This document shows positions 8,569-10,581 of a stretch of DNA of 64,000 nucleotides, one piece after another. The stretch covers positions 1 through 64,000 of the forward strand of contig NZ_NFIH01000002.1 of NCBI RefSeq assembly GCF_002161675.1, written 5' to 3'. Under the pieces are notes generated by a model. That model did no database searches. It had not been told where the DNA came from and saw only the letters and a program-made list of their open reading frames with translations. Numbering within the stretch: the stretch's first letter is position 1; each line of letters starts with the position of its first letter. The position numbers and the translations under genes are program-made. The stretch is from Pseudoflavonifractor sp. An44 (GTDB lineage Bacteria > Bacillota > Clostridia > Oscillospirales > Oscillospiraceae).

Positions 8569-8676
8569 TTACAGTGGCTTGAACTTGATTACCACACAGC
8601 CGTATGTTTCTTCCTTCTCCTTGGACCACCAGCCCCGATAGGTGTCTTGAACCAGTTGTTCCACCGTAATTCCTTG
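8569..8676 (-). pseudogene. 3' fragment of ASCH-domain gene interrupted by IS110
   Basis: Thirty-five codons plus stop: QGITVEQLVQDTYRGWW, then SKEKEETYGCVVIKFKPL. The pattern of Tyr-Gly followed by a hydrophobic strand and Lys-Phe is how ASCH-fold proteins of this type end. Joined in frame to the fragment at 10105-10344, with the IS removed and one TTG core kept, it gives a 115-residue protein (80 + 35 codons). This in-frame rejoining is the main evidence for the insertion boundaries. The fragment has no start of its own. Confidence 0.85.
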
Positions 8677-8688
8677 TATAATTAAGTG

Positions 8689-8880
8689 GTAGAGAAAAAG
8701 GTGAATAAGTGATGTATACTCAAAGCAAGCGTTGTGGAGTGGTTCTAATCCCTTACAGCTGCTTGCAGACTGGTTGACTGAGGCTACAACCACAACGTCT
8801 TGCTTAAGAGTTAATGAGTTGGATAACGCATGGACGTTTTATATCGAGCAAGGTTACTCGGCAAGACGCATGTGGATCAC
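8689..8880 (+). ncRNA. Predicted IS110 bridge RNA (limits approximate)
   Basis: The non-coding left end folds into two guide-loop modules. Target loop: stem 8723-8737 with 8790-8805 (15 bp, one bulge). Inside it TAATCCCTT (8746-8754) matches the real left target TAATTCCTT (8667-8675) at 8 of 9 positions. AGACTGG (8767-8773) can pair, with wobbles, to the right target TTGGTCT (10102-10108). Donor loop: AGTTG (8817-8821) equals the right-end donor AGTTG (10100-10104), hairpin AACG-CATGGA-CGTT (8825-8838), then TTATAT (8839-8844) pairs with left-end GTATAA (8676-8681). The order follows the published IS621 bridge RNA. The RNA ends are estimates. Confidence 0.65.
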
Positions 8881-8909
8881 AGCGCAAATCACGAAACGAG
8901 GTATACATC

Positions 8910-10091
8910 ATGATTTATGTTGGAATTGACGTTGCATCAGAAAAACATGACTGCTGTATTCTAAGTGAACAGAACAAGAAATTGGAGAGTTTTTCATTTC
9001 CAAACACCAAAGCCGGATTTGCTTTGTTGCTCCGTGTGTGTAAAAAGTACGCTGACCAGGGACAAACAAAGATCGGGTTGGAAAGCACCGGCATTTATGG
9101 TGACAATCTGTGTGCATTTCTCAGGCGTAATGGATATGAAATTCGCACCTTCAATCCTCTGCTCATTAAAAAGAGCATTCAAGCAACCACTCTAAGAAAA
9201 ACAAAAACAGATCAGTCCGATGCCTGTTTCCTGGCATCTTACCTTGCACGGGAGCTTCCAGAACCCGATCCGCAGGTATCATACCACATTTCGGAGTTGA
9301 AGTCACTAACCAGAGCAAGATTTTCTGCTGTAAGAGAACGTTCTAAGGCAAAAGCGAAATTGAAAGCGCTTCTTATCTGTGTATTTCCAGAATTCCACAC
9401 AGCATTCAGCAATGTATTTGGAACAGCGGCCATTGCAATCCTACGCAAATATCCTTCTGCCCAAAAACTTGCCACCGCCAGGAAGAGCACAGTTTCCAAA
9501 ATCCTCTACGAAGCATCCAGACATCGTTTAGGCGATGAAAAGGCGGCTATGTTAATGGAATTGGCCAAGCACTCTGTTGGTTGCCACTCAGAGACAAAGA
9601 CGTTGGAGATTCAATACTATCTCGATCAGATAGAATTGAACACCGCTTATATTCGTCGCTATGAAGCATCTATTCAGAACATCATGAATCAAATCAATTC
9701 TCCAATTACGACCATTCCAGGGATTGGATTTGTACTTGGTGCCATGATTCTGGCAGAACTAGGGGACATTGGACGGTTTGCAGCCCCTGAGAAAGTCCTT
9801 GCTTTTGCAGGGCTGGAGCCCAGCGTGTACCAGTCTGGTAAGTATACACCAGCATCCGGCACGATGGTAAAGAGGGGCTCTCCTTATTTGCGCTGGGCAC
9901 TCCTCATGGCTGCGAGAAGCACAATCGTAAACAATCCAAATTTCGCTACCTATTATCAAAAGAAAGTCTCTGAAGGCAAGCACTACAATGTCATTTGTTC
10001 TCATGTTGCAAAAAAATTGGTGAGAACGATCTTCGCTCTTTTGAAAAAGAACACTGCTTATTCACTTCATTATTCACTTAATGCTGCTTGA
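8910..10091 (+). CDS. IS110-family transposase (DEDD recombinase)
   Basis: A 393-residue transposase. The N-terminal RuvC-like DEDD domain begins MIYVGIDVASEKHD with the first Asp; LESTGIYGD and KTDQSDACFLA follow. The C-terminal Transposase_20 domain contains IPGIGFVLGAMILAELGD and the serine-bearing PASGTMVKRGSPYLRWAL. Full length with no stops or frameshifts, so potentially active. ATG 8910 is chosen because the family starts at YVGIDV-type sequence. A longer upstream frame would run into the bridge RNA region. Confidence 0.95.
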   Translation: MIYVGIDVASEKHDCCILSEQNKKLESFSFPNTKAGFALLLRVCKKYADQGQTKIGLESTGIYGDNLCAFLRRNGYEIRTFNPLLIKKSIQATTLRKTKTDQSDACFLASYLARELPEPDPQVSYHISELKSLTRARFSAVRERSKAKAKLKALLICVFPEFHTAFSNVFGTAAIAILRKYPSAQKLATARKSTVSKILYEASRHRLGDEKAAMLMELAKHSVGCHSETKTLEIQYYLDQIELNTAYIRRYEASIQNIMNQINSPITTIPGIGFVLGAMILAELGDIGRFAAPEKVLAFAGLEPSVYQSGKYTPASGTMVKRGSPYLRWALLMAARSTIVNNPNFATYYQKKVSEGKHYNVICSHVAKKLVRTIFALLKKNTAYSLHYSLNAA

Positions 10092-10104
10092 CTTGTTATA
10101 GTTG

Positions 10105-10344
10105 GTCTCGGTCTGCAAAATCCTCTTCCCAGAAATCCTGATAGCAGGTTTTGAAGTCTCCATAAATGTGCAGGCTTTCCACCAGTACGGTGACCCGTTT
10201 GTTGGACTCCGTGTTATAAAATGTGATGGTGTCTCCGGGGCGGATGTTTTGCCGTTTCTCATCATATAAACGGTACTCCCGACGCTTTTGCCCGGATTTG
10301 ACGGTTTCAAAATTTTCGGGGTACAGCCCCATTTCGTGATTCAT
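10105..10344 (-). pseudogene. 5' fragment of ASCH-domain gene interrupted by IS110
   Basis: Eighty codons starting at ATG 10344: MNHEMGLYPENFETVKSGQK, then RLYDEKRQ, then RPGDTITFYNT. This is the N-terminal half of an ASCH domain (a PUA-like RNA-binding beta barrel): the substrate-loop ExxRLYDEKR and the GDxIxF strand are typical. Reading continues two codons into the IS and stops. The residues lost from this half lie at 8569-8676. The protein's cellular role is unknown. Confidence 0.88.
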
Positions 10345-10374: not shown

Positions 10375-10415
10375 AAAAAACAAGAATCTCGAATGCAAAC
10401 GCATTCGAGATTCTT
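10375..10415 (-). terminator. Terminator of the tRNA transcript
   Basis: On the minus strand AAGAATCTCGAATGC pairs with GCATTCGAGATTCTT (15 bp) around a GTTT loop, followed by a T-run at 10375-10380. The stem starts at the last base of the tRNA-Arg CCA. Confidence 0.92.
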
Positions 10416-10491
10416 GGTACGGCTGGAGGGATTCGAACCCCCGACCTTTTGGTTCGTAGCCAAACACTCTATCCAGCTGAGCTACAGCCGC
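10415..10491 (-). tRNA. tRNA-Arg (anticodon ACG)
   Basis: A complete 77-nt tRNA with encoded CCA. Acceptor GCGGCTG pairs with CAGCCGT. The anticodon stem TTTGG/CCAAA holds loop CTACGAA, and the T loop is TTCGAAT. Adenine at the wobble position is expected to be converted to inosine. Confidence 0.97.
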
Positions 10492-10505: not shown

Positions 10506-10581
10506 TGGAGCTGGTGACGTGACTTGAACACGCGACCTGCTGATTACGAATCAGCTGCTCTACCAACTGAGCTACACCAGC
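10506..10581 (-). tRNA. tRNA-Thr (anticodon CGT)
   Basis: A complete 76-nt tRNA with encoded CCA. Acceptor GCTGGTG pairs with CACCAGC. The anticodon stem GCTGA/TCAGC holds loop TTCGTAA, and the T loop is TTCAAGT. It is transcribed first, 14 nt upstream of tRNA-Arg. Confidence 0.97.

Follow-up and report, generated by a model that had tools for sequence, protein, structure and literature searches.

The IS110-group element at 8675–10108 of the window (the whole stretch of DNA analyzed, 64,000 nucleotides) carries a bridge RNA whose guides appear to read both the target and the element's own ends. On the reading that we favor, with a probability of about 0.94, the element is IS621-like, strands are exchanged at a CT core, and the present copy entered at a site that matches its guides in part. 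The original prediction was of an IS110 bridge RNA whose guides match the real insertion site, and homology, covariation and guides that vary in nature all speak for this central reading. The element ends, the CT core, the order of the loops, the left and right target guides (LTG and RTG), the left donor guide (LDG), the core side of the right donor guide (RDG) and the handshake guide are all assigned by comparison with relatives. Transcription from a circular form, the RNA–protein complex and the reaction itself are taken over by analogy with IS621. This provides an annotated natural bridge RNA within a subfamily that has 58 distinct guide loops, where guide, site, core and ends can each be checked against the others.

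The element is 1,434 bp in length, with its ends reset by the relatives to the CT core. As had been proposed, a non-coding left end (LE; 8675–8909, plus strand, 235 nt), which holds a TATAAT –10 box (8677–8682) and the bridge RNA, precedes an intact recombinase gene of 393 amino acids on the same strand (8910–10091). The right end (RE; 10092–10108, plus strand) comprises just the 17 nt after the stop codon and finishes in the core CT. A long left end with a short right end is the arrangement of the IS110 group, the reverse of that in IS1111, a group also marked by long sub-terminal inverted repeats. The IS1111-group features of a long right end with the guide RNA within it are absent, the right end being 17 nt and a covariance model of the RNA matching the left end alone. 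The recombinase matches PF01548 and PF02371 in Pfam, and NF033542, the IS110 family RNA-guided transposase. It has the DEDD_Tnp_IS110 and Transposase_20 domains together with the D, E, D, D residues and conserved serine by which the IS110 group is defined. These residues (D7, E58, D101, D104 and S309) are invariant in 17 of 17 aligned sequences, i.e. the window and 16 relatives. Sequence matches in the PDB are IS621 (8wt6, E = 4.4e-20) and ISCro4 (9t56, E = 6.1e-20). In the 8wt6 alignment the five residues correspond to D11, E60, D102, D105 and S241 of IS621, which are named as catalytic in the available text of PMC11208158.

The element interrupts a gene for an ASCH-domain protein on the minus strand. 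The 3′ part lies at 8569–8674, assigned from the reading across the join and its match to the query, and the 5′ part at 10109–10344, assigned from Pfam (PF04266) and the same reading. In the plus-strand sense the flanks are the left target (LT) GTAATTC (8666–8672), followed by the core CT of the left junction (8673–8674), and the right target (RT) CGGTC (10109–10113), preceded by the core CT of the right junction (10107–10108); the cores at both junctions are fixed from the relatives. Joined at CT, the present insertion site reads GTAATTCCTCGGTC, of which the partial guide match is GTAATTCCT-CGGTC. The ASCH frame is preserved whether the join is made at CT or at TT, so that the frame cannot decide between the two cores. 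The search for an empty ASCH gene gave no close relative; the homologues, at 33–47% identity, are too far removed to stand in for the uninterrupted site. One homologue (in genome G245) aligns without gaps over 112 codons, query positions 1–112, and fits the CT join, and was given no weight. Beyond the start of the ASCH gene lie two tRNA genes on the minus strand (10418–10491 and 10509–10581), and between them and the gene start is an inverted repeat (10381–10416, 89% self-complementary) that is possibly a terminator.

The element's own genome (2.75 Mb, in which the window belongs to contig C12) contains no second copy. The target motif cannot therefore be read from several sites of the same element. 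Protein searches of 300 genomes from the family, 394 from the order and 391 from the class (matches at order and class level being taken at E ≤ 1e-60) gave relatives of at most 45% identity. Scans of genome and viral collections with the single protein gave no confirmed relatives, unlike scans with an alignment. The alignment-based scan of contigs, from which 80 loci were kept of at least 551 confirmed, gave the nearest relative, L117, in Candidatus Faecousia excrementigallinarum (DVFK01000022.1), with a recombinase 82% identical. It also gave the full-length L118 and L119 at 53–54%, the partial L120 at 54% and many loci at 40–45%. Among viral contigs the corresponding scan yielded 27 loci. 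Searches of plasmids and phages gave relatives below 44% identity, which were left out of the analysis. At the DNA level the left end has matches in 7 of the 300 family genomes, its own included. Nine genomes have two to five copies, and alignment of these marks where the common sequence ends. More distant IS110-type recombinases occur in the same genome as the window, at C7:68239–69396 (34%), C15:40862–41959 (23%) and C28:9–242 (a 46% fragment). Three subfamily members (L175, L150 and L141) are on contigs titled Sunxiuqinia, Bacteroides and Bacteroidaceae, which may reflect transfer between phyla or misbinned contigs.

Where does the element end and the target begin? In the original prediction the core was TT, flanked by an LTG of TAATCCCTT and an RTG of AGACTGG (8767–8773), giving a target of TAATTCCTT-GGTCT. 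The raw flanks permit this join, again in the ASCH frame, and AGACTGG can form four Watson–Crick and three wobble pairs with GGTCT. Yet the five letters to the right of the presumed TT core are always GGTCT, AGTCT or AATCT, with TCT in 70 of 70 distinct combinations of guide and site. The constancy of [AG][GA]TCT over these 70 combinations shows that GGTCT at 10104–10108 belongs to the element. Once the boundary is shifted to match, CT is the core at every one of the 76 right junctions and at 75 of the 76 left ones, and the RTG has AG as its core letters in 76 of 76; those of the LTG are CT by construction, since they are the anchor of the 76-row comparison. We also considered GACTGAGGCT as a 10-nt RTG under the TT core, and dropped it because the inner five target letters are constant and hence part of the element.

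Independent proof of the CT core comes from L117. Joined at CT, its flanks read ...GTGAATCCCTCAGTCGCC..., which contains the 13-mer GAATCCCTCAGTC. This is present as 49 exact copies in the 2.0 Mb genome of L117, where the reversed control has none. Thus the CT join restores a dispersed repeat; read from the flanks, a TT join would leave letters of the element inside the repeat string. The contexts of GAATCCCTCAGTC (20 distinct ones were read of the 49) have in common a hairpin-forming sequence after the string, and in the 19 with a full left side a similar stretch precedes it; the flanks of L117 itself show the same. The dispersed hairpin-forming repeat that contains GAATCCCTCAGTC and is the target of L117 is cataloged as L257–L276 in genome G1059. 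The segment AGACTGG moreover lies in an apical hairpin, in a register that carries no signal (z = –0.7; see below). We therefore regard the TT version as very improbable, and with the core at CT and the RTG elsewhere, the proposal that all four guides converge on a TT core was mistaken.

For the structure of the RNA, a MAFFT alignment of 40 relatives gave a consensus of 25 base pairs, 12 of which have compensatory changes. The covariance model trained on these 40 (with L118 among them, and with the window and L117 excluded) has a single match in the 64 kb of the window, at 8726–8867 on the plus strand (97.4 bits, E = 1.7e-20). Among 16 further loci, 15 match at E < 1e-6, all but L064; L118 is in the training set. 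A model made without the window thus confirms a target-binding loop followed by a donor-binding loop, the order of IS621 that had been proposed. In the model alignment the window has CUAAUCCCU in the LTG columns and GACUGAG in the RTG columns, with AGACUGG placed in the apical hairpin of the target loop (8756–8773, plus strand). Covariation thus upholds the places first given to the LTG and LDG and moves that of the RTG. Three pairs of the RNAalifold consensus join letters of the LDG to those of the RDG, and we read them as a resting state or as artefactual. No Rfam family matches the bridge RNA at a meaningful score, and a donor-loop string had no exact match in the viral contigs scanned.

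Structure and the CT anchor set the places of the guides, which were not chosen for how well they match the site. The LTG is CTAATCC plus the core CT (8745–8753, plus strand), in the same sense as the LT and identical to GTAATTC-CT at 7 of 9 positions, with mismatches at –7 and –2. The original prediction placed this guide correctly; the matching stretch there is one base shorter than proposed (TAATCCCT, 8746–8753) and the full register begins at 8745. The RTG is GACTG plus the core AG (8776–8782, plus strand), which pairs with CT-CGGTC at 7 of 7 positions including one G•U. Guides read from one window may be partly wrong until relatives are compared, and the RTG is a case in point.

Across the relatives, guide and site change together. 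A motif parser read 104 of 197 loci (a number that includes the window and overlapping or repeated loci) and failed on 93, of which 63 were without the stem motif, 18 without the right-end motif and 12 without the left-end motif. Removal of rows with short flanks and of duplicates left 77, and L084 was then dropped as it has no CT anchor. The LTG is identical to its own site at 5.10 of 7 positions on average, compared with a mean of 3.32 and a maximum of 3.75 when the sites are swapped (72 distinct pairs of guide and site). For the RTG the pairing is 4.12 of 5 with its own site, against a mean of 2.63 and a maximum of 2.97 (75 distinct pairs). None of 5000 swaps was as high as the true assignment for either guide. 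By position, the signal extends from –7 to –1 and from +1 to +5, with none at +6 to +8, which is the footprint of the 14-position target of IS621. When the register is slid in the 58 distinct guide loops there is a single peak for each guide, with z = 14.6 at register 0 for the LTG and z = 13.2 at k = 8 for the RTG. These z values are too high in absolute terms, as the shuffles count related rows as independent, though kinship does not explain why a single register stands out. All other registers (of 20 and 29 in all) are within a z of 3, including that of AGACTGG at k = 17.

The agreement between guide and site might alternatively be a by-product of relatedness or composition, with no guidance by the RNA. 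The relatives do share guides and types of site, and the shuffles overstate the significance. Yet the agreement is confined to one register and spans the footprint of IS621, and elements with different guides are found at correspondingly different sites. We consider such a by-product most unlikely.

RNA guidance remains our reading for the window itself, where the site has 5 of 7 LT positions identical and 5 of 5 RT positions paired. The window has 7,754 CT dinucleotides over its two strands, none of which scores as well. In the whole of its own genome a wobble-tolerant pattern finds two sites with no mismatch and 43 with one, where the reversed pattern finds 33 in all. The actual site has one mismatch under this pattern, and the two genomic sites score better. 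For one site taken by itself, guide and site agree well beyond chance expectation, yet the genome has better ones. By comparison, the LTG of L117 is TGAATCC and agrees with its own site at 7 of 7 positions and its RTG at 5 of 5, while L119 has 6 of 7 and 5 of 5.

A variant that is compatible with guided insertion would have the guides drift after the window copy had been inserted; the match seen today would then be a remnant and no record of how the copy arrived. The two mismatches in the LTG point that way, as does the single copy of the element. The LTG differs from that of L117 at –7 and –6, and at –6 the base in the window agrees with its own site. Drift accords less well with the RTG, which has the same letters as that of L117 and pairs with the site 5 of 5, or with the lack of any equal among the 7,754 CT sites of the window. 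We hold this variant to be possible, though rather doubtful.

Read as a target, the guides of the window specify about TAATCCCT-CAGTC, one letter off the repeat string of L117; the guide-perfect target is TAATCCCTCAGTC. The host genome has no site for the window guide within one mismatch, where the control has one. L119 also sits in a recurring string, GGCTCCCTCCGGG, with 13 exact copies and 19 with one mismatch in its genome, and none in the control. The same string has no excess in the genome of L118 (four sites with one mismatch, three in the control). Two of the three clade-mates of the window, L117 and L119, thus sit in dispersed repeats. We infer that the element had been tuned to a repeat, that it arrived in a genome lacking this repeat, and that it went into a gene where the match was partial. 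Outside this clade, three loci of genome G798 (L076, L107 and L108) share CACACCCACCT in their left flanks and AGGTGGGGTCACA-like sequence in their right flanks, apparently another repeat that serves as target.

The donor side of the RNA corresponds in part to the element's own ends. The LDG, AGTTGG (8817–8822, plus strand), is identical to 10100–10105 of the right end, within the left donor AGTTGGT (10100–10106, plus strand). It therefore matches six of seven letters of the right end, with the core itself unmatched. The AGTTG first proposed is part of this guide. The core side of the RDG, CAAG (8849–8852, plus strand), which had been missed, pairs with CT-TG across the core and the start of the left end. 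A distal part of the RDG may lie in TATAT (8840–8844, plus strand), a candidate taken from the sequence alone and contained in the TTATAT first proposed; a discontinuous RDG is known for IS621 (available text of PMC11208158). The handshake guide GCT in the target loop (8783–8785, plus strand) complements the last bases GGT of the right end with two G•U pairs; handshake guides are likewise described for IS621 in that text.

The LDG, the core side of the RDG and the handshake guide were compared over 58 rows. The left end begins with T in 34 rows, all with CAAG, and with C in 24, all with CGAG; no other combination is found. The RNA has AGTT followed by GG, AA or AG, repeating the letters of the right end in 55 of 58 rows; three rows break the LDG identity. 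The handshake bases (8784–8785 in the window) pair with the right end at –2 and –3 in 55 of 58 rows, with exchange of G–C for A–U at –2, and here too three rows break the pairing. The donor-side pattern skipped four rows; on inspection, L118, L206 and L195 are consistent at this first position of the left end, and L084 would have a G•U pair there. L118 deviates in its LDG.

Joining the right end to the left end, as predicted for a circular form, gives the sequence ...AGTTGGTCTTGTATAAT... at the junction. The joined ends bring a –35 box TTGACT (10088–10093, plus strand), which overlaps the stop codon of the recombinase gene, to 17 bp from the TATAAT, and thus carry a putative promoter. On the mechanism that we propose, excision would join the two ends into a circle, creating this sigma-70-type promoter, from which the bridge RNA would be transcribed. 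Its first loop would read the target, the LTG being like the top strand to the left of the core and the RTG complementary to the top strand to its right, and its second loop would read the joined ends of the element. The recombinase, with its DEDD and serine residues, would then exchange strands at the CT core. The present copy would be off target because its host is without the repeat.

How general is the aim at repeats among the relatives? Many other members of the subfamily have guides of a different kind. Among 56 anchored loops the LTG ends in CTCCT in 33, CACCT in seven and CCCCT in six, and the bottom strand of the site is AGGAGG or similar. A strict test for a start codon, in which an ATG 7–17 nt beyond the core must open at least 60 codons, is passed by 32 of 57 distinct loops, a number that includes the window's clade of four, by 631 of 11,400 random positions (5.5%) and by none of 57 at the mirror position. 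A looser test is passed by 46 of 74 insertions and by 1,347 of 7,400 random positions (18%). The insertion in the window is inside the ASCH frame and fails the looser test, and none of the four members of its clade passes the strict test. Individual loci that lie in one orientation just upstream of start codons, with an anti-Shine–Dalgarno-like guide, include L020, L060, L067 and L114, L068, and L079 and L100–L102.

On the recombinase tree the window groups with L117, L119 and L118 with support of 100/96, subject to a warning of long branches for L084, L119, L192, L118 and L175, with L119 joining the window. The start-codon label is not clustered on this tree, requiring 17 changes where shuffled labels require 18.8 on average (115 of 500 shuffles are as low). 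We put this down to misses by the strict test in data with one site per guide. Clean switching clade by clade is thus unsupported outside the window's clade. It is nevertheless probable, if less secure than the reading of the window itself, that this mostly clostridial IS110 subfamily has bridge RNAs specialized on two kinds of site that recur genome-wide. In many members an anti-Shine–Dalgarno-like left guide (CTCCT, CACCT or CCCCT) would direct insertion in one orientation at the Shine–Dalgarno sequence before start codons, the choice being narrowed by a right guide that varies, and the window's clade would have been re-aimed to dispersed repeats. Natural retargeting would then consist of matched changes in the letters of guide and site. 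The subfamily can be regarded as a natural series of such retargeting events, in which the anti-Shine–Dalgarno-like guides are included.

Insertion of IS110 elements at Shine–Dalgarno-like sites is not new as such, given the published site motif of IS900, CATGNNNNNNTCTCCTT (PMC8141618). A search of the literature (preprints and most subscription journals excepted) found, among the papers listed, none that ties the guides of bridge RNAs to sites of this kind. Such guides would link the older observation of IS900 insertion at translation starts to a testable guide-RNA mechanism.

The closest comparison is with L117, which has a recombinase 82% identical, the same RTG and the same ends as the window. 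It differs in having an LTG, TGAATCC, that matches its own site in full, and a site string found 49 times in its genome. Among characterized systems, IS621 of E. coli, also of the IS110 group, has the most in common with the window, as described in the available text of PMC11208160 and PMC11208158. Both have an RNA encoded in the left end with a target loop and then a donor loop, a 14-position target with the CT core at positions 8–9, and a donor that reads CTTGTAT from the core on. They further share the promoter at the circle junction (putative in the window), an RDG that on its core side pairs with CTTG and is discontinuous in IS621 and perhaps in the window, handshake guides, and an active site of DEDD and serine residues; repeats (REP) are known to harbor IS621 as well. 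In contrast to IS621, the recombinase of the window can be aligned with it in two stretches only, the guides and the repeat are different, the right end is only 17 nt and the LDG lacks a match to the core. ISEc21 and the seekRNAs of IS110 and IS1111 elements (available text of PMC11187229) have in common with the window an upstream non-coding region that encodes a target-reading RNA, with the match to the bottom strand ahead of that to the top strand; the target sequence and host differ, and theirs is a seekRNA of 74 nt. Lastly, IS900 of Mycobacterium avium subsp. paratuberculosis is a member of the IS110 family that, according to the available text of PMC8141618, is found at CATGNNNNNNTCTCCTT sites, which are Shine–Dalgarno-like and upstream of a start codon, as are those of many of the relatives analyzed here. 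The site in the window differs from these in lying inside a gene, with a guide that points to a repeat.
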